The translations under genes and the position numbers were made by a program. Of a stretch of 64,000 nucleotides of DNA, positions 523 through 58,960 are shown piece by piece. Below the pieces are notes generated by a model, which had not been told where the DNA came from, searched no databases, and saw nothing but the letters and a program-made list of their open reading frames with translations. Every line of letters begins with the position of its first letter. Within the stretch, counting starts at the first letter, position 1. The DNA comes from Sipunculus nudus (taxonomy: Eukaryota; Annelida; Sipuncula; Golfingiida; Sipunculidae): the NCBI GenBank assembly GCA_026874595.1, contig CM049307.1:77972643-78036642 (forward strand), given 5' to 3'.

Positions 523-526
<4 letters not shown>

Positions 527-678
527 ACGAAGACATATTGCTCAGGGGAAAATACTGGGCCAATCTGGGATTCGAACCCATGTCGGTGGCGCACATGTCC
601 GGCGTTCCAACCGCTTCGCCAGAAAAGCTAACTTCACTAGCGAGACAGTTCGGTCCGCTTTTATGTCACCCCGTAACA
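523..678 (-). repeat. 3' LTR of miniature element A
   Basis: 156 bp. On the minus strand it begins TGTTACGGGG and ends CTTCGTAACA, giving the inverted hexamer TGTTAC/GTAACA. It contains CATAAAAG about 15 nt in and a complete tRNA-like block. It aligns with 798-938 apart from a gap over the B box. Confidence 0.82.
567..621 (-). ncRNA. tRNA-like Pol III promoter block inside the LTR
   Basis: On the minus strand TGGCGAAGCGGTTGG (607-621) fits an internal A box and GGGTTCGAATCCC (567-579) contains a perfect B box. They are about 28 nt apart, as in a tRNA. The B box sits in a T-arm-like hairpin (TGGG, seven-base loop TTCGAAT, CCCA). A three-pair D-stem (GCG/CGC) can form around the A box. No acceptor stem or convincing anticodon stem is visible, so this is tRNA-derived rather than a tRNA gene. 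A TTTT run about 15 nt after the B box could terminate Pol III. Confidence 0.7.
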
Positions 679-776
679 TATACCCTCTTAAGAGCGTTCT
701 GCTATCAGAACAGGACCAATTATCCCAGGAGTCACACTTTGGTGAGTTAATTCCCTGGGCCACAAAGTTTACCGTC

Positions 777-794
777 ATCCTGGACGAGCCCCCA
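777..794 (-). other. Primer-binding site, tRNA-Pro type
   Basis: The + strand reads ATCCTGGACGAGCCCCCA. The 3' end of animal tRNA-Pro is ATCCCGGACGAGCCCCCA, so 17 of 18 bases match, including the terminal CCA. It lies 3 nt inside the 5' LTR, as expected for a reverse-transcription primer site. Confidence 0.82.
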
Positions 795-797
795 TTT

Positions 798-938
798 TGT
801 TACGAAGACAAATTGCTCAGGGGAAAATACTGGGCCGATTGTATACGGTGGCACACATGTCCGGCGCTCCAACTGCTTCGCCAGAAAAGCAAGCTTCACT
901 AGCGCAACAGTTCGGTCCGCTTATGTCACCCCGTTACA
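798..938 (-). repeat. 5' LTR of miniature element A
   Basis: 141 bp. It shares the start TGTTACGAAGACA and the A-box half with the other LTR, but the stretch holding the B box is replaced by an unrelated short sequence. It ends CCGTTACA, next to a second TA microsatellite. Confidence 0.78.
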
Positions 939-11024: not shown

Positions 11025-14000
11025 CACAGAAATCGGAATAAAGTGATAGAAAGCGATTTGTAACATAAACATTATATATAATAGCGATAATTATTAATTA
11101 CATTATTAAATGCCTTCTTCAAGTTAAATCCATGAACTTATGTGAATATCAGTAACATTTAACTCTTAAAAACTGAAAAAAAAACTGGGAAAAATAGCAT
11201 ATTGGAATTATATGTTCTAAAATCTCGGGTCTTAATCAAAATAACTGTAAAGCTGAAATGTTTTACAGTCATACATTCAATTAAGGAATTTCAATTAAAG
11301 ATTTCAGTTAAACCATTAAGATAAGATAAGATAAGATAACATTTATTAGCCTTCAGTTCCAGGAATTTGTTGTTGACTTGCAATTCATTACATAAAAAAA
11401 AAAAAATAAATAAGTAAATAGATAGATAAATACATAAAAATAATACAAAAATACATAAAAATCACACATAACATATTGATGCATGTAAAATTAAGCATGT
11501 AAAAATGATAAAACAGATAATTCTGCAGGTAAAACACATAATTCAAAACATTAAATTTCTAAGAGGGTTGTGAGTTAAAGTGTTTAATACTGTGTGGTAC
11601 GAGAGATTTTTTAAAACGAGTTGTTCTGCAGAATATTGTATCTAGGCGTTTACCTGAAGGTAAAAAACGGAACTCTGAATATAGGGGATGTGTTTTGTCA
11701 TTCATGACCTTAGATATGAAGGCCATTGTTTTGGTTTCACAGATTTCCTGGTGTGTGGCAAGAGAAGTACCAGTTATTCTACTACTTCTCTTCCTGGTAT
11801 TATTCAACTGTTTCTTTAACTTATCAGATATATTTGTAAACCAGCAATCCAGTGAATAAGTAAGGACACTGGAAATTACTGAATTATAAAACATGGTAAT
11901 TATGGTTTTGTCAATATTAAGCTTTCTTAGATAATAAAGGTAATATAATCTTTTGTTTGCTTTCTTGGATTGATTCAACACATGTTCTTTCCAATTCAGA
12001 TTTCTGTCAATAATACATCCTAAGTATTTATAATTTTCTACAATATCAACATCTTCATTTTTGATAGCAACTGGGGTAATTACAGATTTTGATCTCCTAA
12101 AATCAAATACTACTTCTTTAGTCTTCTTTACATTTAACTGAAGGTAGTGTTCCTCACACCAACCAGTCACATATTGAATGGTTTTCCTGTAGAGCGATTC
12201 ATCATTCTTGTGTATCAGGCCTAGAATGACAGTGTCGTCTGCATATTTGATAATTTTACAATCTGAAAGGCTCACAGACAAATTATTTGTATATAGAATA
12301 AAAAGGACTGCTGACAGAACACATCCTTGTGGAGCACCAGTATTTATGATTATATCTGAAGAAGTTTCTTTGCTTGTTCTAACATGTTGTCTTCTATCCG
12401 AGAGAAAATCTAGAATCCATAGACAGTAGGAAAGAGGAATGTTATATCTACAGAGCTGATTGATCATAATGTGTGGCTGTATTGTATTGAAGGCTGAAGA
12501 ATAATCAATGAAAAGTGATCTGGCATAATTTCTGGGGTCCCTGTCTAAGTGTTGATAAATATAATGAGTTAATGTGGCAATTGCGTCGCTTGTGCATCTG
12601 TTGGATGAATATGCAAACTGATGTTGATCTAGCATTGGTTTAACAATTGGAAGTAATTTATTAAGAACTATTCGCTCCAAAGATTTTGCAAGAATAGATG
12701 TTAGTGCAACAGGCCTAAGATCATTCATCACTTTAGGAGAGTTATTTTTGGCGACTGGAATTATTTCTGCGGTCTTCCATAATTTTGGTAGTTTACATAA
12801 GGAGAGAGACAATTGAAAAATGTAATGTATGATGAAGGACAAACTATTTCTACAGGTTTTAATTAATCTGCCACTGATTTTGTCGGGTCCACAGGCTTTC
12901 TTTACATTAATCTTACTTAACACTTTGTTTACATCAGTTACATCAGTAAGGATGCTATCATCACATGATTCTAAATTTGCTCTCAGACTGCTCCAAATGT
13001 CATCTTTTTCTTTTGAGAAGTCACTTTCATCAAAACGTGCATAGAATGTATTTAATTTGTCAGCATAGCCATTTTCAGCAAGCAGTGAGCATTCTTTCTT
13101 GCTTTTAGTTATACCAGTTAATTCCTGATTTGTAAAGCTAGCGTACTTTTCGATTGATACAGCTTTGCCGTTATACCTGGTAACAGACAATATAAAACCA
13201 CTCTGAGAGTTGATTCTCCTAGATCTGCAAGAACACACATCAACTGAGAGGGTAACCTGAACATAATATGTAGCGATATGGGGTTTCATTTTTAGTTGTT
13301 CTACATCAGAACTGAGACAGGCTCCAACTCAGTCATGCACGCTACATAAGGGAAATCATCTGCAGCCCGACCCTCAACCAGGGTCGTACATAATGAAAGG
13401 AAAAACACAAATATTCTGAACCGTTTAGACTGTATAATTTACTGTGATGGAAAGACCAAATAGTGTATGACATTTTGGTGGTTAAATAACATCTTCATAA
13501 AACGCAGTATTTAAGATACCTGCCTAGAATATATGACATGTCTAGCGTATCATTTTGTTTCTAATAGTGCCAACCCCTTTACATGGGTCCTCCGTTTACA
13601 TGTATAACGATGGAGGATTTAAGGGAGTTTCGAAGCGCACACTCAAGTAGTGTGTTTTATGATTTCTTAAATAAAGCCACATTTGACCTTTTGCGTGTAT
13701 TATGTGCACAGAAAAATCTTGTTTTCTGTCATTCCGTTCCTCGTTTGCGCGAGTGCCTGCAGACATCCATGGTCCACTTGTCCACGACTTGCATGGATGT
13801 AACTTGTACAAGGAATGTCAACTCGTGACCACGACAATATTTTTAGGAGATAAAAAACTCACGGTCTCTGGCAGAATAGTATGGTTCGGCTTTGTAATAA
13901 CATTTTTTTTTTCTTAATGTGGGCAGACCATTCAACTATTTAGGTGATTTAAAACTAAATTGTCAGGTTGGTTATCTTTTGAAGAAATCCTTCATGCTGA

Positions 14001-14715: not shown

Positions 14716-17700
14716 AATATCACATTTTTAAAGGGGCATAATCAAGGGCAATATTTAGTTTTTTCACACTATCAGTTCTGTTTTGCTTTTTCCAAGCAAA
14801 ACCGCCCAGTACACAGTCTCAGTATCTCCCATATGGCTGTTTTAACACCTTTGTTAACACAATGGTTTTGCTTGCAGTCCACTTCCATCTCTATACCATA
14901 ACAAGGCCGCGTGACCGGAAGTCAGAATTTGCTCATGCTAAACATATTGCAAGCAAGGACTAGTCCATACACATACATAAACATTCATGGTTTCTTATAT
15001 ATCTCTGCGGGTTGGACATTACGATCCATTGGCCGAATGTAGAGCCTTCCACAATAGATCTGTACGATAGATCCAGAGGCCTCAGTTGAAATGACCCGCA
15101 TTTGTGAGCCTGTGTATCAGGTCGCTGAGCCACCGCAACATACGATGGTTCAGTCAGCTGGAACATGTATCACATTTTTGGGCCAAGACAGTCAAGGCAA
15201 GGAGTTTATAGTCCTATAAACTCCTTGGTCATGGCATCTCCTGATTGACAGGTGTTTTGGCCACGCGCTGTGTTTATATTAACGCTTTGGTTCGAGCCGC
15301 TCCACTTTTTTAACATTTGTGTACAAGAGTAAGCCATCGCATAAAGGGCAATATTTTGGCCTGGACCAATTTATTTAAAAGAGATGACCTTATTTTTCTT
15401 ATTAATTCAACATGATTTATAGATGATTAGGCCCTTTAAAATAATAAACTACCTAAAATTTCGACATCCGACCTGTGACATCCTGGTGTTTGTGCGACGC
15501 AAAATGAGAGCCTCCAAGAGCGGTTTCGAGAAACATGGAGAATAGCATCTGTCAGGGTAAAATAATGGGGCGGGGATGCGAGATGAAAGTACTCAGCGTC
15601 AAATCGAAAATCTATTTTTGTGGCAAGGGAACGTGCATAGGCAAAGATTAATATAACGCTTTAAACTTAAATTAATAATACTATTCAAACCTCGACCTTA
15701 TCATCAAATTGATTTAGGATTCACTAAGAAATTCTTGTGTTTGTGTTGTTCTGGCTACTTTTTTCTTCACCAGTGCTGGTATCAGTCCCACTTGAATATA
15801 CATTTTTTCTTTTACTCTTTATTTGCATTATTTTTAATTTATATAAATCCACACTAACATTATACGTAAGAGAACTGCGAAATATACATTGATTTCTATT
15901 TTTAATCAGGGTAAGAAAATTGAATACATTTTAAAAACTCTGGCGACGGGTCCTTTGTACAACCACATGAGAAGCTATTGGGCCAACAACAAGGACAGGA
16001 ACTTGTTTCCCGCCACAAGAAAGGAAGGATTGGAAAGAGTCCGACAGGAAAATTACGCATTCATTGTACAGTCTTCGTCTGCTAACATTGAGAAGGGTAA
16101 ACGCCCCTGCGATCTGACAACTATTGGTGAGATCATGCACCCTGGGAGCTACGCCATGGCGGTATCGAAAAAGTTTCAGGTCAGGAAATTTCTTTCAAAG
16201 GACACATCATCACTAAACTGCATTTAATATAGCCTTGAATGTCAGATAATTAATAGACGTTTTCCAAGCGCATGCACGTTTAAAGCTTTTTAAAAATTCA
16301 TATAAGGTCAGAGAATCTTGAGAAATTTGTTAAATAAGAATGAATACAAGCAACAGCAACAACTGGAACTTTGAATTATAATTTTAATGTAAATTTTCTT
16401 CATTTGATAAATAATCATTTGTCAAAAAATGGAACCAGTTATTCCAGTGGCGTCAATTTATCTTCCAGGGTTGGGTAAGGATGACTTGCAGACACACACC
16501 CACGTATCTGTATGACACTTAATCACCTTTCATATAATATAACGGGTTGTTACGGAACCTAATAACAATAGATCACGTAGTCGTGACGAGCACAAATTTT
16601 GTCATGCAGATAAAAAAATAAGATTCTGTAACACTAGGCAGCGTGAAATGTCTAGGGTGATGTATAAAGAAATCAGTGGTTTTTTGTTAACGAATAATTC
16701 TAATTTATTCTTAAAAAAACTAACATCACAATACACTAAATCAATACAATTACACAGTATAACAAATGTACAACAGCAAATCAATACAATTACACAATAT
16801 AATAAATAAAGTGTACAGTACCTGGATACCACCACTGTCACAGCGACAACAAGTCCTTTAAAACCAATAATCCACGTAAAAAGTTCAGATAGTCCAAAGT
16901 AAAGCTCTTGTAATAATCTCGAAAGTAAACTGTAGACAGGCCGCAATAAATCTGCATAGAGTTCGTAGAATCCCTCACACTACTGCATATAATGGATAGG
17001 CCTAAAACTGACTCACACTCTTCCGTGTCCGCTGGAATATTTCTCTCTCCCCTCTCGGCTCTAAACAGAGCCCCATATTTATAACTTGTCACCCCAAGCC
17101 GAGATCTTTCCATTTCACGAACAATCCAAAAGAACCCAAGAATACGTAATACACAAGCCCAAAGAACATACTAGAACAAAGAACGCTGTGTTTCTACACG
17201 TCAGACCCCACACGTGGGCCGAGCCAGCCCGCGCGTCTCCCATGGCAACGGTCAATGCTAGCGCTACACAGACACATGTGAGACTGCTGCACACAATAAA
17301 ATAGACATCTGTAACACTCCCCCTCCTGTAAGAAAAAAAGAAAGTTTTCTAAAAAAAACTTTCTTTTTGCGATCACAATCACTTTATTTTTACAATATTT
17401 CATCAATCATCTTATTAACAATATTACATAAACATCTCGTTACAACAGTTCATTATCATCTCGATAAGCAATCAGCAATTACATTGTCTTTCCCTTTATT
17501 GTGTCTGATTTCAAGATTGTAATCCTGTAAAAACAAACTCCATCTCAACAATCTTTGATTTTTACACTTCAACTTGTCCATGAACGTGAGGGGATTGTGA
17601 TCACTGAAGACAATGATAGGCTTGACTGATGAAGTAACATAAACCTCAAAATGTTGCAATGTCACACTCAAAGCCAAACATATTGTTTTAATAATGGAGT

Positions 17701-20700
17701 AGTTATTCTGGTTTGCATTAAATTTTCCTGAAAAATTACAAATTGGATGATCTATGCCATCACTGCCTTCCTGTAACAACACAGCACCAGCAGCCGTATC
17801 ACTAGCATCTACAGCTAACTTAAAATACACAGAAAAGTCCGGAGCTGCTAAAACTAGTGAACTTTGCAGAATTCCTTTCAGATTCTGAAATGCATTTTCA
17901 CACTAAACATTCCATACAAACTTTTATTTCTTCTTTAATAAAATAGTCAAAATTTCAGTTACAGCAGAAAAATTTTGACAAAACTTCCTGTAGTATCCAA
18001 GCATACCAAGAAAACGCATTATTTGAATTTTTTCTGGCCTAAGAAATGCAGAAATAGCACTTATTTTAGCATCACGGGTTTTACTTGATCCTGCCCTACA
18101 ATATGACCTAAAAATGTTACTTGTGCATGACAAAACTGAGATTTGACTAAGTTTATGGTCAGACGGGCTTCACTTAGTCTTTTGAAGAGGTCGCGAAGAA
18201 TTTGCAGGTCTTTCTCCCAGGAATCGCTGTACACGATAAGGTCATCATTATATGCGTCGCAGGCCTTAATGTCCTTGACAAACATATGGATGAGGCTCTG
18301 GAACGTGGCTGGCGAGTTCTTCATGCCAAACGGCATAACTTTATACTGGTACAGACCTTGCGGCGTCACAAATGTGGACACTTCTTTCGCTCGTTCTGTC
18401 AGCGGAACGTGCCAGAATCCTTTTAACAAGTCAAACTTGGAAACATATCTGGAGCTACCGACTCTATCAATACAATCATCGATCCTCGGAATTGAGAACG
18501 TGTCAGTCTTGGTGACAGAGTTCAGCTTTCGATAATTTGTGCAGATACGGTAACTTCCATCAGGTTTTTGCACAAGAATACATCTTGCAAATATTGAACC
18601 TCATCTTGTGGATACTTTTGCTTTTCTGGATTCAGTCTATAAGGATGCTGCTTGACTCGCCAACAACGACGTCATGGCACAATATGTTAGTTCTGGAATG
18701 TCACTAAACAAATGTTCATAATTCCGTAGCAGGTTCTTTAGGTCTTGTTGTTGTGTGGTAAGGTGTGACAGTTTGGCATCAAGTTTGTTAAGTACATCTG
18801 AGCACAACTGGTACTGTTCCACACTGAATGTCTACATCACACTTACAATCAGTATCTACTTTAACTGGGTCAGGGTCAGTTTTTAAACAAATAAGAGAAG
18901 TAACATTATGTACAACATCTGATGTGCTATTTCTGTCATAATATGGTTTCAACATGTTAACATGGCACAGTTGTTTTTCTTACGCCTATCTGGTGTTAAC
19001 AGTATGTAATTTCAATCACTGACTTTCTTGTCAACAATGCCAAAATACCTAGCTTGCAGAGGTCTGACAGGAATAGGTAGTAAGGCAAGGACCTTTTCAC
19101 TAGGCTCAAACTTTCTACATACAGTGTGCTTGTCATACTGTTTTCTTTTACTTTGTGCAGATATTAAATTAGACTTTGCAATTTCACAAGCATTGTGTAG
19201 TTTAGTACGAAAGTCTGACACATACTGAAATAAACTAAGAGAGTCAGGATTTTCACACAAGAGTTTTTCTTTAAGCAGTTTTAATGGACCGCGAACCGAG
19301 TGTCCAAAAACTAGTTCAAAGGGACTGAAACCCAAGGACTCTTGAAAGGATTCTCTGACAGCAAACAGCAATTGGTGGATTCCTTCATCCCAGTCTTTCT
19401 GTGTGTCATAGCAATAAGTCCTAATCATGTTTTTAATGTCTGGTGAAAATGCTGGAGCGCGCCCTGACTTTCAGGACGATATGGCCAAGAGCTGTACTGT
19501 TTTATACCTAGCTCAAGCATAACTTGCTGGAACAAACCAGACATAAAATTAGACTCTTGGTCAGACTGGGCGGATTTTGGTATTCCAAAAGTTTTAAAAA
19601 AACTTTGTCAGAGCTTTGACAATATTTTTGTCAGTTATTTTGCGCAATGGTATTGCCTCTTGGATCCTGGTAGATGCGCACATAATTGTCAGCAAGTATT
19701 CATGACCAGATTTTTTTGGGCAGTGGTCCTAAGTGGGCTTTAGGAGGATTCTCATTGGGCTTGCCTATCATCTGGCATGTGTGGCATGATTTACAATATT
19801 GTACAACATCAGTCCTGAGGTTAGGCCAATAGAAGTGTGTACTAACTTTCTGATAAGTTTTATTTATACCTAAATGGCCTGACAAAGGAGCCTCATGTGC
19901 CATGCTTAAACTTTCATTGCGATAACTTTTGCGCATTATTATTTCATTTTGATGGCCCACTCATCATCAGCGCATACATGAGGTGGTCACCATTTACGCA
20001 TTAGCACTCCATTTTTAACATAGAAACAAACTGGGTTCTGTGGCAGTTTATCTATAGAAACTGCCCTGGGAAACAAACATGATATATCAGGGTCCTTGAC
20101 CTTGAAAATGCTGCGTCCTGTACGGCGAGTCGACAGACGAGTCATTAGTGACTCCCAGAGTGTTATTATCTGGACCATTATCCTCATGTTTGTTTTTCTT
20201 TGCCATTGATCTAGTTACAGCACATGAAGAATACAAACCAGGAATTTCCTGACTTTCATGGTCAGTGTCATGATCAAGTGACGGTATTTCTGTCACCATT
20301 GGTACAGGCTGTTATTGGTCACCTGCAACATCATTGCCTACTAGCAACCTAATTCCCTTTAAGGGTAAAGTATTTCTTATGCACACAGTAATATTCCCAG
20401 AAATCAAATCTGTATCTAAGAGTATACTGTGAAGTGGGACTGAAATGTGCTCGTCTGAAAAACACCATTAGAAAATGGCAAAGTGTTTGTGTAGGTGTAG
20501 AATCTGAAAAATCACTTGAAAGTGACACAAAACCATCATGTATGAATGGCTCAAATCACTCCATTTCAGAGTTAGGAGAGGAATCTACTACCTCAGTTTC
20601 ATCAAACAAAGAACTGACACAGATAGTGCCAGTCATCAACTCTTTTTCTGAGTCATTTAAGGAATCTACATCCTCATTACAATCCAACTCCTCATGGGAG

Positions 20701-22839
20701 TCAACAGAGGAGTTTTCCTCAGCAGAAACAAAATTCTGTTTCTCATAAGAGGACCTGGCCTCATTTGAAATATTCTCGCAGGAGTCTTGAAAGGACCTAG
20801 CCTTATTAGATTCCTCGGAGGAATCAAATGAGGTATTTACCTCGCAATCTAGGGCTTCTTCTTTAGAGTCAGACGGCACGTTGGCCTCCGTAGCATCAAA
20901 CCCTTTATTAGAGTCTATAAAGGAGTTGTACCCCTCAATTACATGAAAAGAACCTGGATTTTGTACTATGCTATGCATAGATTTTGAAACAAAACCAGAG
21001 GGTTTACCCTTTGGTTTATTTGCAAGTTTCCAGCGGTCAGATATTAGATGACCTTCCTTTTTGCAGAAAATACAGATTTTATGGACTTTGTTGTACTATC
21101 AGGACTACTTGTACTGGGTAACTGCGCTTTAAACTTCTTTTGACCATACTGATTTCCGTTCTTGTTTGTGAAAGACTGGTTTGATTTGCTAGTAAAGGAC
21201 ATTTTATGTATTAATGAATAATCATCAGCTAATTGAGCTGCAATGTCAAGTGTTTCAGGACTCTTCTCAACAAAAATGTTAACATCTGCGTTAATGCAGC
21301 GCTTAAATCCTTCAAGCAAAATCAACTGGCGCAAATTGGCATAATATTTCATTACATTTTAGCGCTACACCAGCGATTAAACAACTGCTGTTTTGTCCTA
21401 GCAAATTCGACATAGGCCTGTCCTTTGCGCAATTTCCCAATTTTTGAATTTCTGGCGGTAAGCCTCCGGAACTAACTCATAACCTTTTAGGATTAACCGT
21501 TTAACCTGGTCATAATCAGCAACGGTTTCTACTTAAAGCTATGTATTTTCGCTGGCCTTGCCAGTCAATACACTTTGTAATACATAGTCTAATTTTCCTT
21601 AGGCCATTTAAAATTTTCAGCAACCTTCTCAAGGTGTAAGAAATATTCATCAAGCTCTTTTTCTTGAAAAGGTGGGACAAGTTTAATGTGTTAAGTAATA
21701 TAAAAACTCAAGTTGGGGCAGCAAGTAGGTCATATTGTATTTTAAGTCTTTCTAACTCCAGTCGTTTTAACTCAATTTCTTTTTCTTTTTCTAGTCTTTC
21801 TTTTTCTAACCTTTCATGTTCTTTCCTCTCTTTAAATGCTAGCTCATGTTACATTTCTAACGTTTATAATTCTAACTGCATAGCAAGGCTGTCATTTTTT
21901 TTATGTTTCCACTTCACTCTCTAAAATTAAACCCATGCTTACCAGATCTTGCATGATTGTAGCAATGATATCAGGCTTTCTCAAAGCGTTTTACACACCT
22001 AGCCCTAAGTGTTGTCCTAAACGCAACAACTGATCTTTTGTCAACTGTTCAAGTTGATTAGGGTCGGGATCGACAACAAATGTCTCAGGTTTGGAATCTG
22101 CCATGTTAAGATGTTAAAACAATAACAAAAAAACACTGAGATAAATCCTGTTAAAAATGTATTTCAAACAATATGTAATCTTGTAAACAATGTATGATAA
22201 AACAATATGTCTCGGTCAAGGCCTGATAAAGTTTCAAAACTATTAAGCTTCCCGGACGAGCCCCCAATTTTTATGTTACGGAACCTTATAACAACAGATC
22301 ACGTAGTAGTGACGAGCACAAATTTTGTCATGCAGATAAAAAAATCAGTTTCTGAGAAATCGGTGTTTTTTTGTTAACAAATAATTCTAATTTATTCTTA
22401 AAAAAATACTAACATTACAATACACTAAATCAATACAATTACACAGTATAACAACAGTACAACAGCAAATCAATACAATTACACAGTATAATAAATAAAG
22501 TGTACAGTACCTGGATACCACCACTGTCACAGTGACAACAGGTCCTTTAAAACCAATATTCCACGTGAACAGTTCAAATAGTCCAAGGTAAAGCTTTTGT
22601 AATATTCCCGAAAGCAAACTGGAGACAGGCCGCAATAAATCTGCATAGAGTTCGTTGATTCACTTACACTACTGCAATTATCGGATAGGTCCAAGACTGG
22701 TTCACACACTTCCGTGTCCGCTGGAATATTTCTCTCTCCTCTCTCGGCTCTAAACACAGCCCCTTATTTATAATTTTTCACCTCAAGCCGAGAACTTTCC
22801 ATTTCACGAACAATCCAAAAGAACCCAAAAATACATAAT

Positions 22840-22903
<64 letters not shown>

Positions 22904-30640: not shown

Positions 30641-31960
30641 TGAAGATTTCACCGGCGTGACCATGACAAAGTCGTACCGACAAAGTACAACAATTGCTTG
30701 CCCCCCCCCCCTCCCAAAAAAAAAAAAAAAAAAAAAAAAACTCGTATATTCTAGAGGGTTTATTCGGAAATGGATTTGTTTAGCTGGACTCGAACTCAGA
30801 TTGAAATTCCAAATTTAAATTTAAATCCTTCCACAACAAATTCACCAGTCAAGCCGAGAAAAATTTGAAATCGAAGTGCAATAAAGCATGGATCGCCGTA
30901 TGACTTTCAGAATAGTAGTCATCATGTCTGGATCTTGAGCAAGATCCTTTGAGTTCCATGGTTTTTGTATCAGTTTTCGAGATGGCGTGTTCTCGCTCAT
31001 ATGATGCAATCTTTTGATTTGACTTGGATATAACGTCGCACGATAACACTTCAGATTAAAAAATCATATAAAACAGATTATCTCCGTCATATTTGATAAG
31101 CTTATCACAATTTTCGACATAACATATCATTAAGTAACATTTCACATGACATTTCGTAAAATGACACAGTCGCATTTAACATCACATTACCTAGGATTTT
31201 CACGTCATGACATTTCCTGATCAGCATCACATTTTACAACATAACAATTTTCCCGCATCATTTAAAAGTATATGTATAAAACAGATGGATAATAATCAGA
31301 CATTAAAAAGGAATGTTTCCATTTGATATAAATATGACATGGACCCATGACCTAAGAAAGTGAAATAAATTTAATGAAACAAGTAATTGATAAAATCAAT
31401 ATTGATAATTCGGGTAATTTTTGGCGGTTTCTTGCTTCTTTAAAAAAGATGGGCTTTGGGGCAAAACTATAGCACACATGATGTATATATAAAATTTCCT
31501 GCTCACAGAGAACGAATTTATATTTAAATTTTCAACCGCAAGATGTCGCCTTTCACCCCCCCCCCCCCCCCCCAAATAAAGAGGTTTTTTCTTTTCTTTA
31601 AAAGAGTTCTTTATAATCGTTTTTAAATTAGCCAGTCTGAACTTATCTGTTCCATACCTGTGTTACCAAGACAGGCCCGTCCTGGGTGTAAATGTCAGGT
31701 ACACAATTAGATAACAAAAGCACAATTCTATTCCCCAGGGAATGGAAATACCTGTGGTCCTCTTGCGGCTCACAGTTAAAGATATCCATGACGCGGCGTG
31801 CGTCCATGGTGCGCCCTCTGTCGGTAGTTGTGCGCCCTCTGTCGGAAGATGTCTTTCTATCAGCAGCTTTTCTCAGGTGTGGCTGGTCGTATTCTCACGA
31901 AATATTGTACAGTGGGTATGTTTTTTCCAAGAGCGAAGCAGAAACCATATTGTGGCGCCA
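30640..31960 (+). repeat. Dispersed repeat, arm 1 of an inverted duplication
   Basis: Reverse-complement of 57550-58960 with moderate identity. Matching landmarks: a poly-C/poly-A block and CTGGACTCGAACTCAG (arm 2: GAGCTCGAATTCAG, opposite strand), a GATCCATGCTTTATAG-type phrase, GAGATGGCGTGTTCTCGC, a poly-C run at 31555, CTTATCTGTTCCATACCTG, and GACGCGGCGTGCGTCCATGG. No open frame shared between arms, so probably a non-autonomous or decayed element. Confidence 0.7.
31555..31574. repeat. Poly(dC) run
   Basis: 20-bp C run. The same position in the other arm (57969-57989) is a 21-bp G run, so it was present before duplication. Confidence 0.85.
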
Positions 31961-32254
31961 CCTGTTTGTATGACGATGTTTAGGTCTTTCTCATATGTTG
32001 GTCACATCAAAATTATAAATCTCAAATATTTCAACATATATCCCTGTCATCATGCAACTTGTAACTTCTTAACAGAACTGTGGTAGATACATTTGAGAAC
32101 TGGACTGAAGAGAGTTTTTTTTTTTTAATTTAGAAACAACCAACAGCAATTCTCAGCCATAGAATTGCATTTTTTTAACGCTTTTAGCTTTTTTTTGGGG
32201 GGGGGGGGGTGGGAGAAAGCCTGCTGATTACAAAAATGTGACTTTAAATTGTGA

Positions 32255-34306: not shown

Positions 34307-35640
34307 AACTAGATGTGTCGGAACGACACGAATGCCCCCGCCTTGAGCAAATTAGAAATATTTGTTAAATTTTGTAAAAAAATTTAGGTTCAGGAGCTGT
34401 CATAAGGTCAAAAGTCGGTCAACGGGGGCAAAATGCAAACGCGATCTGTAACAGGTCATTATCAAGCAAGACGCCAAAATCAGGCCAGTATCTGCAGGCA
34501 TTGAGGCAAGTCCATACATGTGCAATTCTTCAAAAAAGTTTCTGTTTTTCATGAAATTTTCTATGTTCAGGATCTGTCATTGGTCAAAAATAGGTCAACT
34601 GGGACGAAACGCGAACTCGATCTGTAAGTGGTTATTATGTGCCCACAGACCAAACATTAGGCCAGTATCTGTAAGCATTGCATTGCGAAATTAGAATATT
34701 AGCAAAAGCTGATAATCAGTTATAAATTTAAATTGGAGAGGTATGTACCATACTTCATTACAATCCACCAAATGCTTCCTGAGAAATAAGCTCCTAAGTT
34801 TTTTTTTTTATTCTAAGCTCTGTGACCTTGAAAAGTAGGCCAAGATCACCCATCTTTGAACTTGACCAAGATTGTGTAAATATGAAATAGCACTGAAGAA
34901 ATGAAGTTCCTGCGTTGAATACCTTTGGAGATATCTCCACAAAAGGCCAAAGTTGAAAAATCCGATAAAAATTCATTAAAAAATCAGAAATTGTAGGTTT
35001 TGCCACCAAAATTGTGCAGCTCGTACAGACCATCATTCCCTATGAGTTTTGTGAAAATCCACACAATGCTTCCTCAGATATAAACTTCTGAGTGTTTTTG
35101 TATAATCAGCTCTAAAACAAAGAAAAATAGCTCAAGGTCACCCATCTTCCAACTTGACCAAGATTTTGTTGATATATATCTTCACTGATTAAATAAAATT
35201 TCAACAGTGAATTCTTTTAGAGATATCCCACTCACAAGGCCAAAATTGAAAAATCCGATAAAAATTGATTAAAAAATCAGAAATTGCAGGTGGCATCACC
35301 AAAATTGTGCAGCACGTACATACGATCAGTCCGAATGATCATAGTAAGTTTTGTGAAAATCCACACATTGGTTCCTCAGATATAAGCTTCTGAGTGTTTT
35401 CTATAATCAGCTCTAAAATGTAGAAAAGTGGGTCATGGTCACCCATCTTCAAACTTGACTGAGATTTTATCGATATACATCTTCACTGATGAAATAAAAT
35501 TCCAACGGTGAATCCTTTTAGAGATATCCCGGTCACAAGGTAAAAGTTAATGGACGCCAGACGGATTGACGGACAGACAGACGGACAGCTTGGGTGACGA
35601 CAATAGCCCATCAGCCTATGAGCTGATCGAGGGCTAAAAA
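34307..35640 (+). repeat. Composite repeat element with GACGGA tail
   Basis: Starts about AACTAGATGTGTCGGAACGA and ends with GACGGACAGACAGACGGAC, then TGAGCTGATCGAGGGCTAA. The first part has two units of the 181-bp family (34350-34700), the second three units of a 302-bp family (34760-35560). I associate this start and end with a repeat common in bivalves; a database match would be needed. Confidence 0.6.
34760..35560 (+). repeat. 302-bp tandem repeat, three units
   Basis: AATCCACACAATGCTTCCTC-type phrases start at 34762, 35056 and 35358 (spacing 294 and 302 bp). Each unit continues with CACCCATCTTC.AACTTGAC and GAGATATC. Confidence 0.75.
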
Positions 35641-35670
35641 GGCTGTACATGTACATATCTGTTAAAAATT

Positions 35671-36240
35671 TCTATTTTTCATGAAATTGTCTATATTTAG
35701 GAGCCTTAAAACGGTCAAAAGTAGGTCAACCGGGACAAAACGCGAACTCGATCTGAGACTGGTCATTATCTGCCAACACATAAAAAATTCAGGGCGGTAT
35801 CTGCAAGTATTGCGGAAAAAAGTCCGTACATATGCATTTATAATGAAAATTTCTATTTTTCATGAAATTTTCTATGTTCAGGAGCAGTCAAACGGTAAAA
35901 AAATAGGTCAACTGGGACAAAACACGAACTCGATCTGTAACTGGTCATTTTCTGCCCCCACACCAAAAATCGGGCCCATATCTGCAGGCATCGCGAAAGG
36001 AAGTCCCTACATGTGCACTTGTCATGAAAATTTATATTTTTCATGAAATTTTCTATGTAAGGGCACCCTCAAACGGTCAAAAGTAGGTCAACTAGGACAA
36101 AACGAGAACTCGATCTGTAACTGGTCATTATCTGCCCACACACCAAAAATCAGGCAAGCATCTGCAGGCACTGCGGAAAAGAACTCCGTACATATGCATT
36201 TGTTATGAAAATTGCTATTTGTCAGTGCGCCTGCACTTAT
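35671..36240 (+). repeat. 181-bp tandem repeat, three further units
   Basis: TCTATTTTTCATGAAATT starts at 35671, 35852 and 36033, with a degenerate start at 36214, exactly 181 bp apart. Shared core GGTCAACTGGGACAAAACGC and GAACTCGATCTG. Related to the two units at 34350-34700, so the 302-bp array lies between two parts of one array. Confidence 0.82.
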
Positions 36241-43740: not shown

Positions 43741-45185
43741 ATACAGGTGACTGAAGAGGGGCTGGATTAAGCCTGGGTCTGACATGGTCTCATAAAAACA
43801 TTAATAAAAGCTACAATATTTGGCCAATTTCTTTCAGCTTTCTAAACTACAAAGATGAAATCCTAATGTGTGCATAATATGAAAATTATGTCAACAGTGC
43901 TCTCAGGAAACAAACGTGCCATGGTCAAATTTTGGGAAAATTTGATACTAATTTTATATTTATATTAATAACTTATAAAATTTGAAAAATTCAGAACTAA
44001 TTTTTGGTATTCAATTGAATCTTGATTAAATAATGTTACATCCCTGACAAAATATCTCTAGCTTCTGCAATCCTCTTGTTAAGTGAATAAATATATTTCT
44101 TGATTTTTTAAAAAAGTGCATTATGTTTGGGCCCATAACTTTAAACAATTACGCAATACTGACATCATTTCTGGCATGTGCATAGTGAATGTATAGACAA
44201 ATATGTATATTATATATGATCAAAGTCAGATCAGTGGTTTTGATATTAGGCAGTCTTACAATGGAACAATGTTTTTAAATGGAAAAATGAAGTTTTTCAT
44301 TAATATTTCAAAGGAATTAAGTCCTAGTGATCAAATTCTTGGCATGGTAGGGGATTTTGGAGACATCTAACTGTATGCTAAATTTAAGGAACTTAGAGCT
44401 GAAGCTGGGGAGGTGAGCTCTAGCAAACTGCATAACACTAGCTTGATGTAAACTTGATGTGACACGGTGCTTGAAAACTTTAATAAAATCTATCAGTTTT
44501 TGATCAACCGGTTTCAAATTTTTGGTGTTAACAGACAAAATGCTAACAAAAACATGCTGTGAAAATTAAATTCACAGTACTTACAAGAAAAAAAAGTGCC
44601 ATGGTCAAACTTGGGCAAAATTTAAGCTACCAATTTTATATTTTTGCCAATATTTTAAAACATTTAACAGATTTTGATCTAATTTTTGGTATACAATAAA
44701 ATTTTGATTAATTAAAGTTGTATTACTGAAAAAAAGTCCCTACCTTTAACACTTTTGGTCTTAAGTGACCAAATATCTTTCCTGATTTTTTACAAAGTCC
44801 ATTATGTTTGGGCCCATAATTTTTAAAAATTGAATAATACTGACTTAATTTATGGCATGTACATAGGAACTATATAGAGAAATATTTATGGTAAATATGA
44901 AGAAAACCAGATGAGTGGTTTTGATATTCGGCAGTCCTGAAGTGTGAAAATAGATTTCTAATAAAAAAAATGAGGTTTTTCCTTAATATCTCAAAGAAAC
45001 TAAGTCCTATTGACCCAATGTTCGGCATGGTAGGAGATTTTTGGGACATCTAACTGTGTGGAGTATTTCAGATTCGTAGGTCTAATGGTGTCGAAACGTG
45101 CCAGTCTTACGGATGGACATCCGGACAGACGGACGGACGGACAATGGACCACGACTATAGCTCAGTTGACTTATAGTCAGCTCAG
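43740..45185 (+). repeat. 680-bp tandem pair with GACG tail (locus 1)
   Basis: CATTATGTTTGGGCCCATAA at about 44116 and 44799, 683 bp apart. Each unit has TGAAAATTAAAT.CACAGT, TCTGGCATGT.CATAG and a GTAGG.GATTTTGG.GACATCTAA phrase. Unit 2 ends with GGACAGACGGACGGACGGAC and GGACCACGACTATAGCTCAG. Confidence 0.78.
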
Positions 45186-48859: not shown

Positions 48860-50410
48860 TTATAACATTCATCTAGTTTATGCACCATCTGGGGGGGGGA
48901 GTGCGGGGCAGAGGGGAAGCCTGCTGGTAGTGGCCAAGCTGACCCAAGGCGAGCTGCCTGGGGTGGGTTACATAATGCAAGTGAAGGCTGTACTACTAGG
49001 TGGGCTAGATGTAAACAACACTTGACATGGTGTATGAAAACATGAATAAAAGCTATTCTTTCCAATCAATTTCTTTGAAATTTCAGATTTTAAAAGATTA
49101 AATCCTTATGTATATATATGCTGTGAAAATTAAATCAACAGTGCCAAAGTTGGACAAAATTTAAGGTATTGATTTTTTATTTATGCTAATAACTTGAAAA
49201 ATTTGCAAAATTCAGATCAAATTTTGGGTAAACAATTGAATCTTGATTAAATAAAGTTATATTCCTGAAAAAAAAGTCTCTAGGTTCAGCAATTCTCATG
49301 TTAGGTGAGTAAATATATTTCCTGATTTTAAAAAAAATTGCATTATGTTTTGGCCCATAACTTCAAAATAATACCCAATACTGACCTAATTTTTGGTATG
49401 TTCATAGAAAATGTAAGAAAGAATGTGAATACTAAATACGATCAAAAACAGATCAGTGGTTTATATTAGGCAGCCTTGAAGTGTAACAATGGCTTTTTTT
49501 ATGGAAAACGGAGTTTTTTCCTTAATATCTCGAAGAAACAAAGTCCTAATGACCCAATTTTCGGTTTGGTAGGAGATTTTGGGGACATCTCAAATTATGC
49601 CAACAGCCTGGGGAGCATAGAGATGTGCACTGAATGACCTACAGTCATCAAAGTGGACTGCTTGACAATGTAATGGAATACAACAAGAGCCTCCAAAAAA
49701 ATTCAATAACTAGCCTAATTGTGCAGCTTTTATTTTCAATTTTCAGATTTTAAAAGATTAAATCCTTATGTATACATGCTGTGAAAATTAAATCCACAGT
49801 ACTTACAGGAAAAAAACGTGCCGTGGCCAAAGTTGGGCAAAATTTAAGGTACCAATTTTATATTTTAGCCAATATTTAAGAAAATTTAACAGATTTTGAT
49901 CTAATTTTTGGTATACAATTAAATTTTGATTAATTAAAGTTGTATTTCTGAAAAAAAGTCCCTACCTTTAACACTTTTGGTCTTAAGTGACCAAATATCT
50001 TCCTGAATTTTTTACAAAGTCCATTATGTTTTGGCCAATAACTTTTTTAAATTATATAATACTGACTTAATATCTGGCATGTACATAGGAACTATATTGA
50101 GGAATATTTATGGTAAATATGAAGAAAACCAGATGAGTGGTTTTGATATTAGGCAGTCCTGAAGTGTGAAAATAAATTTCTAATAAAAAATTGAGGTTTT
50201 TCCTTAATATCTCGAAGGAACGAAGTCCTATTGACCCAATTTTCGGCATGGTAGGAGATTTTGGGGACATCTAACTGTATGCCTAATTTCAGATTCGTAG
50301 GTCCAACGGTGTCGAAACGTGCCTGTCTTACGGACGGACATCCAGACGGACGGACGGACGGACGGACAGATAGACGGACGGACGACGGACAATGGACCAC
50401 GACTATCATC
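48860..50410 (+). repeat. 680-bp tandem pair with GACG tail (locus 2)
   Basis: Same family as 43740-45185. CATTATGTTTTGGCC phrases at about 49341 and 50020 (679 bp apart). The tail has GACGGACGGACGGACGGAC (50345-50395) and GGACAATGGACCACGACTAT. Confidence 0.78.
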
Positions 50411-50948: not shown

Positions 50949-51271
50949 GCAAGCTTCACTAGCGAGATAGTTCGATCCGCTTTTATTTGCACCCCGTAAC
51001 ACGCCCCCTCTTGAGAGCATTCCGCTATCAGAACAAGACTAATTTTCCCAGGAGTCAAACCTTTGTGAGCTTTGTGAGCCCTGGGCCACAAAGTTAACCA
51101 TCACGTTTGGCGAGCCCCCATTTTGTCACAAAGACAAATTTTTCAGACTGTGCCGATCCGGGATTCGAACCCACGTTGGTGGTCCACAAGTCCTGCGTAC
51201 CAACCGCTGATCCAGCCAACAAGTTTCACTAGAGGGACAGTTCGGTCCGCTTTTATGTGCTCCCTATAACA
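50949..51271 (-). mobile_element. TRIM-like miniature LTR element (copy B, 3' LTR truncated)
   Basis: Same structure and orientation as 523-938. It has only the last 53 bp of the 3' LTR (50949-51001, GCAAGCTTCACTAGCGAG … CCCCGTAACA), the whole internal region (51002-51123, including GAGAGCATTCCGCTATCAGA and CCTGGGCCACAAAGTTAACC) and a complete 5' LTR (51124-51271). The primer site is diverged but keeps GGCGAGCCCCCA next to the LTR. Divergence from copy A shows that this is a family, not a local duplication. Confidence 0.78.
51124..51271 (-). repeat. 5' LTR of miniature element B with intact tRNA-like block
   Basis: 148 bp. On the minus strand ACATAAAAGCGGACCGAACT, then A box TGGATCAGCGGTTGG (51200-51214) and B box in GGGTTCGAATCCC (51160-51172). 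Both boxes survive although the rest has many substitutions relative to copy A. Confidence 0.78.
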
Positions 51272-57219: not shown

Positions 57220-57549
57220 GAAAATAATTGATTTTTTGTTAAAGTTATTTCATACAAGATATATTCATATAGGTATTAAATTCGATGGCAATATTTGTAC
57301 ACAATGACTTCTTCTGAATGAACTCTTAGTTATATTGAGATGGCACAATAGGGTCTGCGTAACTAATTTTTGCCCCCCCCCCCCTCACCCTCCCCAAGTC
57401 AAGTTCTCAAATGTGTCTACCACAGTTCTGGAAAAATATTGATACATTCGATCCTCATAACAAGCTGCATGGTGACAGGGATATATGTTGGAATAATTGA
57501 GATTTTTTATTTTTCTTAATCAGTGACCAAAGTGTGAGAAAGAACGAAC

Positions 57550-58960
57550 AAACGTAAAACATACAGGTGGCGCCACAATATGCGTTTTACTGCGCTTGGT
57601 ATAACATACCCACTTTCGTGAGAATACAATTACCCACTCCTGAGAAAAGCTGCTAATAAAACAGACGACTATACCGACAGAGGGCGCACTGACGCCGCGC
57701 CATGGATATCACTGACTATTGGCTTAAAGTGGACTACATTAATATCTCACTGGGGGAATTAAATTGTGCTTAGGGTATCTTTTTGTGTACCTGATTTTTT
57801 AGAATAGAATGAACTTATTCATGAAAAGGCCATTGTGTACCTGACATTTTCGCCAAGGACGGACCTGTCCTGGTAATACAGGTATGGAACAGATAAGTCC
57901 AGGCTGGCTGATCATAAACGATTATAAAGGCAGTATTTTTAAAAGAAAGAAAAGAGCTCCTCATTTCCGGGGGGGGGGGGGGGGGGGGGTACAAGACGAT
58001 ATCTAGCGGTTGAAACTTAAATATCAAGTTTACCGTTCTCTGTCAGCAGGAACATGTATACAACTTGTGAGCTTTAGTTCTGCTCCCACGCCCATCTTTT
58101 TGAAAAAAAGCAAGATAACGCCCAAAATTACCCTAATTATCAATATTGATTTATTTATTAATTATTAATTTATTATTTCATTAAATTTATTTCACTTTCT
58201 TAGATCTTGGGTTGATTCCATTCTTATTTCAAATAGAAAAAAAATTCCTTATTAATGTATGATTATTATCCTTCTGTTAAATACATATACTTTCAAATGA
58301 TGCGGGAACTTTGTTATGTTGTAAAAATGTGATGCTGATCATGAAATGTCAAGACGTGAAAATCTTGGGTAATGTGACGTTTAACGAAATCTCATGTGGC
58401 ATCTTACGTAATATTATGTTATGTCGTAAACTGTGATAATCTTATAAAATATGGTGGAGATATTCTTTTTTTATATGATGTTCGAACTGACGTGATACCC
58501 CAAGCAAATTAAAAGTTTGTGTCATATGAGCGATAAAATACGCCATCTTGAAGACCGAAAAGGGTAAACACCAAAACCATGGAACTCTAAGGATCTTGCT
58601 TAATATCCAAACACGGTGTCTACTTTTCTGAGAGTCATACAACGATCCATGCTTTATAGCACTCCGGATTTAAAACTTTTCACGGCGTGACTGGTGAATT
58701 TGTTTATGGAAGGATCGGCAATGACCAAACGTGATAAAAAAAACACATTTTGGGACCGAGCAGTGAGATTTAAATTCGGAATTTTGATCTGAGCTCGAAT
58801 TCAGCCAAACCTGTCCAATTTTCCGTATAAGCACTCTAGAATATGTCAATTCGCCCCTGAATTAAATTACTTAAAATACATTAAATAATTCAGAAATTTC
58901 GAGATTTTTCTTTTTTTTTGCGGGGGGGGGGGGGGGGGGGTGGCAACCAATGTACCTGAA
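57550..58960 (-). repeat. Dispersed repeat, arm 2 of an inverted duplication
   Basis: Reverse-complement counterpart of 30640-31960, 26 kb away. Includes two poly-G runs (57969-57989 and 58922-58940) at the places where arm 1 has poly-C runs. Confidence 0.7.

Follow-up and report, generated by a model that had tools for sequence, protein, structure and literature searches.

A Helenus-type miniature LTR retrotransposon in Sipunculus nudus and inverted-LTR insertions at its tRNA mimic

Miniature LTR elements (TRIMs) that carry tRNA-derived A and B boxes within their LTRs were named Helenus by Kojima in 2024, with a range covering fungi, plants and six animal phyla (PMC10886601). They are non-coding, 311-1263 bp long and equipped with a primer-binding site (PBS) and a polypurine tract (PPT), and one zebrafish family is found in tandem arrays (PMC10886601). 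In animals, Helenus elements generate 4-bp target duplications, are primed by tRNA 3' ends (tRNA-Pro among those of bivalves) and depend on Gypsy elements (PMC10886601). The box A motif given for most Helenus LTRs is TRGCY plus YGG, and that of box B is GGTTC (PMC10886601). In the accessible portion of this founding paper the tRNA-like sequence makes no contribution to the initiation of reverse transcription, a SINE insertion is proposed as the ultimate origin of the group, and Pol III transcription is left unproven (PMC10886601). Beyond it, we found no further Helenus papers except a meeting report that cites it.

The element studied here lies in a 64,000-nucleotide stretch of S. nudus DNA, which as a whole we call the window. 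A sequence-only reading of this DNA had supposed that no animal family of the kind was described; the Helenus TRIMs published from six animal phyla in 2024 show otherwise (PMC10886601).

The 416-bp element and its copies in the genome

On the minus strand of the window, at 523-938, we found a 416-bp TRIM in which two LTRs flank a 119-bp internal part (Table 1). Read along this strand, the element consists of the 5' LTR (938-798), the tRNA-Pro PBS, the internal sequence, a purine run and the 3' LTR (678-523). Both LTRs start with TGT and end with CGTAACA, and the 156-bp and the 141-bp copy are identical at 128/141 ungapped positions, with an alignment score of 203 versus a shuffle maximum of 19 (n = 200 shuffles) and a BLAST E-value of 7.5e-41. 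The PBS that follows the 5' LTR, TGGGGGCTCGTCCAGGAT, matches 17/18 bases of the tRNA-Pro site, as counted by eye against the host 72-nt tRNA-Pro plus CCA. Two stop-to-stop frames overlap the unit, and neither has a Pfam family match. The non-coding LTR-PBS-LTR unit that the sequence-only reading had proposed is thus real.

Table 1. Features of the focal TRIM, its second copy and the Gypsy element, in window coordinates
Feature	Position	Strand	Details
3' LTR (element sense)	523..678	-	156 bp, TGTTACGG...CGTAACA
B box GGTTCGAATCC	568..578	-	3' LTR
A box TGGCGAAGCGG	611..621	-	3' LTR
TATA-like ATAAAAG	658..664	-	3' LTR
Internal domain	679..797	-	119 bp
Polypurine tract AAGAGGG	683..689	-	precedes 3' LTR 523-678 in element sense; family tails
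Primer-binding site	777..794	-	17/18 bases complementary to tRNA-Pro 3' end with CCA
5' LTR (element sense)	798..938	-	141 bp; B box deleted, TATA-like motif shortened
A box TGGCGAAGCAG	873..883	-	5' LTR
Degenerate Gypsy-type element	16548..22844	-	LTRs about 16548-17154 and 22274-22844
Gypsy RNase H	17459-17902	-	
Gypsy RT	18064-18600	-	
Gypsy integrase zinc domain	19703-19960	-	upstream of RT
Gypsy PBS core	22257-22266	-	same tRNA-Pro site as TRIM
Second TRIM copy	50949..51271	-	5' LTR 51125-51271 with A and B boxes; internal 51002-51124; truncated 3' LTR 50949-51001

The same reading had placed tRNA-type boxes in the LTR. In the 3' LTR this stands: the A and B boxes start 43 nt apart and are accompanied by a TATA-like motif, and a strict A...B motif occurred once in the whole window, versus never in 60 Markov resamplings. 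In the 5' LTR it stands only in part, as a small deletion removed the B box and the TATA-like motif is short by two bases. From these losses we infer that the focal copy is probably a dead, inactive template for Pol III. An ATAT duplication flanks the element (519-522 / 939-942) and carries little weight because it lies inside AT repeats.

We rejected the focal block as a functional tRNA: its fold signal was absent (z -0.11), an Rfam scan gave it no tRNA match, and ARAGORN (bacterial setting) called 0 tRNA genes in the window. The second copy was rejected as a functional tRNA as well, having just 13-base matches (E-values of 2 and 4.6), and a 17-base match to a viral contig (L001) was set aside as chance, with 17-18 bases in common with the element. 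A TTTT stretch is missing between the A box and the 3' LTR of the second copy, as it was in 44% of resamplings, so that its absence is uninformative.

The eight closest copies, the focal one included (L002-L009), were all located on one contig, C2, at 77.0-80.2 Mb, and had about 3 kb of flank in common, 92-99% identical where aligned. Judged by these flanks, the C2 copies in this interval (at least 8) are segmental duplicates of one insertion. Two further close copies of the second copy also occurred on C2 (L129, L130).

Dispersed copies were sought in the whole genome (1.43 Gb, 153 contigs), where the junction between the LTR end and the PBS of the TRIM family had 1,194 sites (<=1 mismatch) and a reversed-pattern control had 0. 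We examined 32 dispersed loci (L010-L041) and another 27 retrieved with the second copy as query (L131-L157), after leaving out that copy and its close copies (L128-L130) before counting. One place was found twice (L144 = L027), so that the 59 loci are 58 places; it was counted once among the 54 testable for duplications. The LTR-internal-LTR order was observed in 59/59 of these loci. Target duplications of 4 bp flanked 22/31 testable loci in the first set (0.86 expected) and 15/24 in the second (0.48 expected), or 37/54 distinct testable places overall; 10 of the 37 are weaker as evidence because they read ATAT. Two-LTR copies with 4-bp duplications, for which the sequence-only reading had proposed a genome search, are thus borne out. 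The LTR pairs at 30 first-set loci were 84 to 100% identical, arrays of three to five LTRs occurred at several loci, and the PBS core GGGGGCTCG was present in 31/42 internal domains. Two forms of the PBS tail, TCCAACG and TCCGGGA, were seen in the internal domains of L010-L041; the latter matches tRNA-Pro further, as expected if the primer is sometimes recopied into the site.

As a side observation on the assembly, COX1 matches with long open frames occurred on the bacterial-looking contigs C60, C61, C62, C66, C72, C74, C75, C89 and C123, and a short weak one on C5. The C60 protein (577 aa) had none above 58% identity among the best 80 relatives kept from other genomes' contigs. For C123, 112 kb long, inspection covered the first 10 kb. 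These contigs possibly come from a symbiont or contaminant of a little-known lineage, C60 alone having been compared with other genomes.

The tRNA-like block and its candidate polymerases

By loose patterns, the A and B boxes were both present in 46/72 first-set LTRs and 37/62 second-set LTRs, as compared with 0.0006 in shuffles of the latter. The sequence-only reading was right in describing a TRIM whose LTRs contain tRNA-type boxes. The commonest A box was TAGCGAAGCGG (38/72 LTRs), and the T-arm mimic ATCCCGGA was kept exactly in 24/72 and 10/62 LTRs. These counts bear on the possibility that an ordinary element received a SINE insertion in one of its LTRs and that everything else is chance. 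A SINE insertion is what Kojima proposes as the ultimate origin of Helenus (PMC10886601), and the focal copy does have its B box in one LTR only. However, the block sits at both element ends across loci, and LTR 798-938 lost its B box through a small deletion in a block that matches otherwise. We therefore consider this explanation very improbable, and a SINE in one LTR only, the situation that the sequence-only reading had named as contrary to its claim, is rejected as a description of the present element by the 46/72 and 37/62 LTRs with boxes.

The conservation of the boxes gave a weak sign of function. As wholes they were not clearly above the rest of the LTR (B box 0.920, A box 0.947, LTR average 0.929). 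The 13 fixed A and B box positions held 0/13 subfamily sites (1.1 expected) and varied less than other LTR positions (permutation, 0.07), and the fastest-changing stretch of the LTR was that between the boxes. One dispersed copy with identical LTRs, L041 (C7:2327642-2329050), has lost the 11 nt that directly follow the B box and form the acceptor portion of its tRNA-like block, and retains both boxes and the TATA-like motif. The dual Pol II and Pol III transcription envisaged in the sequence-only reading would have its evidence in motif content and in this weak conservation.

Possible Pol III stops were frequent, with TTTT found just past the B box in 66/72 and 50/62 LTRs and ahead of the A box in 59/72 and 31/62. 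The stretch behind the B box in most LTRs would speak against a full-length Pol III transcript. The best-conserved part of the LTR was located elsewhere, in windows starting at LTR positions 16-26, where it begins at the TATA-like motif; this motif was exact in 56/72 and 61/62 LTRs.

In another reading, Pol II would transcribe the element as a conventional TRIM from its TATA-like motif, and the tRNA-like block would be carried along passively or give rise to no more than a short (~80 nt) Pol III RNA. This reading would fit both the conservation peak and the position of TTTTCCCC after the B box. It would fit less well the absence of subfamily sites and the fewer changes at the fixed box positions, the fast evolution of the stretch between them, and the L041 copy, in which 11 nt are gone after the B box yet both boxes are kept. 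We regard it as a real possibility that falls somewhat short of being probable.

Primer tRNA, Gypsy partner and B-box junctions

The window also contains a degenerate Gypsy-type element (Table 1), which has in common with the TRIM its tRNA-Pro PBS and the LTR end CGTAACA. Chimeras between TRIM and Gypsy sequence were found at L163, L169, L177, L181, L186, L187 and L255. The window Gypsy is likely a relative of the mobilising partner, and the chimeras suggest an encounter of the TRIM with this Gypsy family in the course of reverse transcription, which falls short of proof that this very family supplied the proteins. Mobilisation by Gypsy, a Helenus trait, is in this way seen indirectly, through the common PBS and the chimeras.

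Other repeats were observed in the window. At 11562-13328, on the minus strand, a 589-aa open frame contains RVT_1 followed by an ALKBH8_N-like stretch and looks like the remnant of a non-LTR retrotransposon. Two diverged repeat pairs join 43780-45142 with 49023-50363 (80%) and, inverted, 30825-32106 with 57397-58715 (72%), and tandem arrays with 181- and 301-bp units occupy 34385-36224.

A search for tRNA-Pro of the host, made to verify the primer, brought up a set of junction loci in which a TRIM LTR runs up to its B box and continues into GGACGAGCCCCCA, which is followed by an LTR end in reverse. GGACGAGCCCCCA is the CCA-tailed end of tRNA-Pro and also the complement of the PBS. A pattern of T arm, acceptor and CCA had 118 genome sites (<=3 mismatches; control 0), some of which are tRNA genes. 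From 37 loci taken by tRNA-Pro-end patterns we dropped 5, namely four tRNA-Pro genes (ARAGORN; L161, L164, L167, L173) and a tRNA cluster in which ARAGORN calls tRNA-Ser and the tRNA-Pro-like end is cut at the edge of the stretch (L176). Among the remaining 32, a TRIM LTR was joined at the B box in 26 (24 events, with L159 and L184 scored as duplicates of L158 and L172), and in 20 of these 26 the LTR was present from within its first 8 bases; the other 6 of the 32 have a longer tRNA-Pro copy upstream. The flank check also flagged L178/L169, through TRIM internal sequence, and L181/L174, through AT repeats, which we judged to be non-duplicates. After the CCA came an inverted TRIM LTR in 22/26 loci and an LTR of the window-Gypsy family in 4/26 (L169, L181, L186, L187).

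Some of these junction molecules integrated. Duplications of 4 bp were found at L158 (GCCA), L162 (ATAT), L166 (AAGG) and L191 (ATAT), two of the four thus being ATAT, and forms folded back twice, ending in U3 and U5, are flanked by TGTT (L172), CTTT (L188) and TATT (L194), as read by eye. At L171 no matching flank duplication was present (TTTA/TTCA), L168 runs into an array and has no matching duplication either, and L182 was excluded from this count as an AT run.

Longer copies of the tRNA provide what we take to be better evidence on the primer than the 26 junction loci, in which the portion derived from the tRNA may be no longer than the ordinary PBS. At L160, L163 and L241, tRNA-Pro sequence reaching well past the PBS, with CCA, lies directly before a TRIM LTR end, and at L185 it lies in the same way before a Gypsy LTR end; L165, L177 and L193 have extended tRNA-Pro sequence but no clear LTR end after it. 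The longer copies in L160 and L185 start at gene positions 38 and 37, adjoining tRNA position 37, a methylated site in tRNA-Pro, although two cases are no proof. We also noted clustered tRNA-Pro-like 3' ends at C14:19.08-19.32 Mb, in part in steps of ~3.6 kb, and at C5:41.59-41.81 Mb, with steps of 1.8 kb and longer and with tRNA-Ser also called (L176).

Since the T arm was built into the pattern, the pattern could not show how frequent junctions are elsewhere in the LTR, and we therefore sampled LTR-end/PBS sites as a control, taking 60 of the first 100 exact ones (5 known junctions skipped, 35 left out). Two of the 60 were already among the 118 pattern sites, one with a tRNA-Pro body (L241) and one with an LTR joined at the B box (L253). 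Of the other 58, 53 are followed by the internal domain (weakly in 4 cases) and the remaining 5 are weak or of another kind; 0/58 showed a clear sense-orientation LTR join at a different point. Over all 100 listed sites, 7 were shared with the 118-site list, two of the 7 being one duplicated event. One of these 5, L207, resembles a Gypsy leader; in a longer stretch of it (L255), the PBS of a TRIM is separated from the remainder of the internal domain by ~150 bases of Gypsy leader.

We asked how finely the switch can be placed from tRNA base 57, which is G, the LTR base, in 22/24 events (P = 0.0007, taking 60% as expected on our own estimate from the shared bases). Host tRNA-Pro genes carry either base, by ARAGORN, with A57 in the AGG gene (L161) and G57 in the TGG and CGG genes (L164, L167, L173). 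Base 57 therefore cannot place the switch, and we rejected it as evidence for a stop at m1A58. As judged from the junction sequences, the strand switch fell within the shared T-arm stretch, base 57 giving no finer placement. The same difference among host genes could reveal the isoacceptor used to prime an individual copy.

Retroviral plus-strand strong-stop DNA normally stops short of m1A58 in the primer tRNA (PMC13191261). For the TRIM, we propose that an RNA, made by a putative polymerase, would start in the 5' LTR near the A box and that tRNA-Pro would prime its reverse transcription, as supported by the PBS and by the few loci with a longer tRNA-Pro-CCA copy at an LTR end. The enzymes would come from a tRNA-Pro-primed Gypsy related to the window element at 16548-22844, as supported by the chimeras, and integrase inserts the TRIM copy with 4-bp duplications. 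Plus-strand DNA copied from tRNA-Pro would end in ...TCCGGGAT and, to judge from the junctions, could pair with ATCCCGGA in the T-arm mimic of an LTR. Extension from there would proceed along the LTR template as far as its first base, yielding a molecule with two U3 ends, and the products would be inverted-LTR or TRIM-Gypsy molecules, some of them integrating. The B-box junctions in this way suggest mis-priming on the tRNA mimic during a reverse transcription common to TRIM and Gypsy.

These junctions might instead reflect conventional DNA rearrangement or a switch from one genomic copy to another. The family does have tandem arrays and segmental duplications, the L168 and L178 junctions lie inside arrays, and the stretch common to the LTR T arm and the reversed PBS would serve homology-driven exchange too. 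However, L158, L166, L172, L188 and L194 stand alone between 4-bp duplications, and the longer tRNA-Pro-CCA copies beside LTR ends are not explained by DNA exchange, so that we find rearrangement, in place of plus-strand mis-priming, an unlikely source.

Turning back to mis-priming, we lean towards seeing the tRNA-like block of the LTR as a decoy that the element carries for the tRNA that primes it. Plus-strand DNA ending in a copy of tRNA-Pro would mis-anneal to the T-arm mimic in a different LTR copy, within the TRIM or between TRIM and Gypsy, and repeatedly yield integrated inverted-LTR elements and hybrids. The explanation as a whole, a Helenus-type TRIM that is primed by tRNA-Pro, uses Gypsy enzymes and leaves side products of T-arm mis-priming, we hold to be quite probable. 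Inverted-LTR insertions at the tRNA mimic were unexpected and are absent from the accessible part of the Helenus description (PMC10886601). We found no literature on inverted or hybrid products of such elements, a weak negative, with most subscription journals outside the search.

The inverted junctions at the T-arm mimic suggest that a tRNA mimic in the LTR has a cost. The extended tRNA-Pro copies next to LTR ends indicate the primer, and fused Gypsy pieces the mobilising partner. Should the decoy reading apply generally, such products would be expected from each Helenus family that uses a tRNA 3' end as primer, every product marked by the primer concerned. The same footprints could be searched for in oyster, zebrafish and wasp genomes, giving a direct test of the autonomous drivers of Helenus.

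Comparison with known systems

The Cassandra TRIMs of plants have an LTR-borne Pol III promoter, of which the boxes in the S. nudus element are a candidate counterpart, share with that element miniature size and tandem LTR arrays, and differ from it in being plant elements with 5S rRNA in place of tRNA (PMC7215508). A Cassandra-like 5S origin was rejected, with no 5S match in the Rfam scans. The biv-TRIM of bivalves is likewise a miniature LTR element of animals, occurs in solo and tandem forms, and differs in that, in the available part of its description, it is without a canonical PBS and has a conserved TGATCCCAAAGGAC motif (PMC6934838). Identity with biv-TRIM was rejected, as this motif had 0 matches in the window (<=2 mismatches) and a canonical PBS is present. 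The window Gypsy, with its integrase zinc domain upstream of RT in a Copia-like order, is similar to Gmr1-type Gypsy elements (PMC8220671), a likeness in domain order, drawn for a degenerate element.

With Helenus the agreement extends over most described features: a 416-bp TRIM with two LTRs and no Pfam-matching frame; A and B boxes in the LTR, with GGTTC in the B box, the focal 5' LTR being without the latter; a PBS and a PPT at the ends of the internal part; 4-bp duplications at 37/54 places (10 of them ATAT); and a tRNA-like part that is not a functional tRNA. In the box A motif, CGG is present and the commonest box, TAGCGAAGCGG (38/72), departs from TRGCY at its Y. The inverted-LTR insertions at the tRNA mimic and the chimeras with a given Gypsy go beyond what the accessible part of the Helenus paper describes (PMC10886601). 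Compared by described features, the S. nudus TRIM is of the Helenus type, either as a new family or as one already named.
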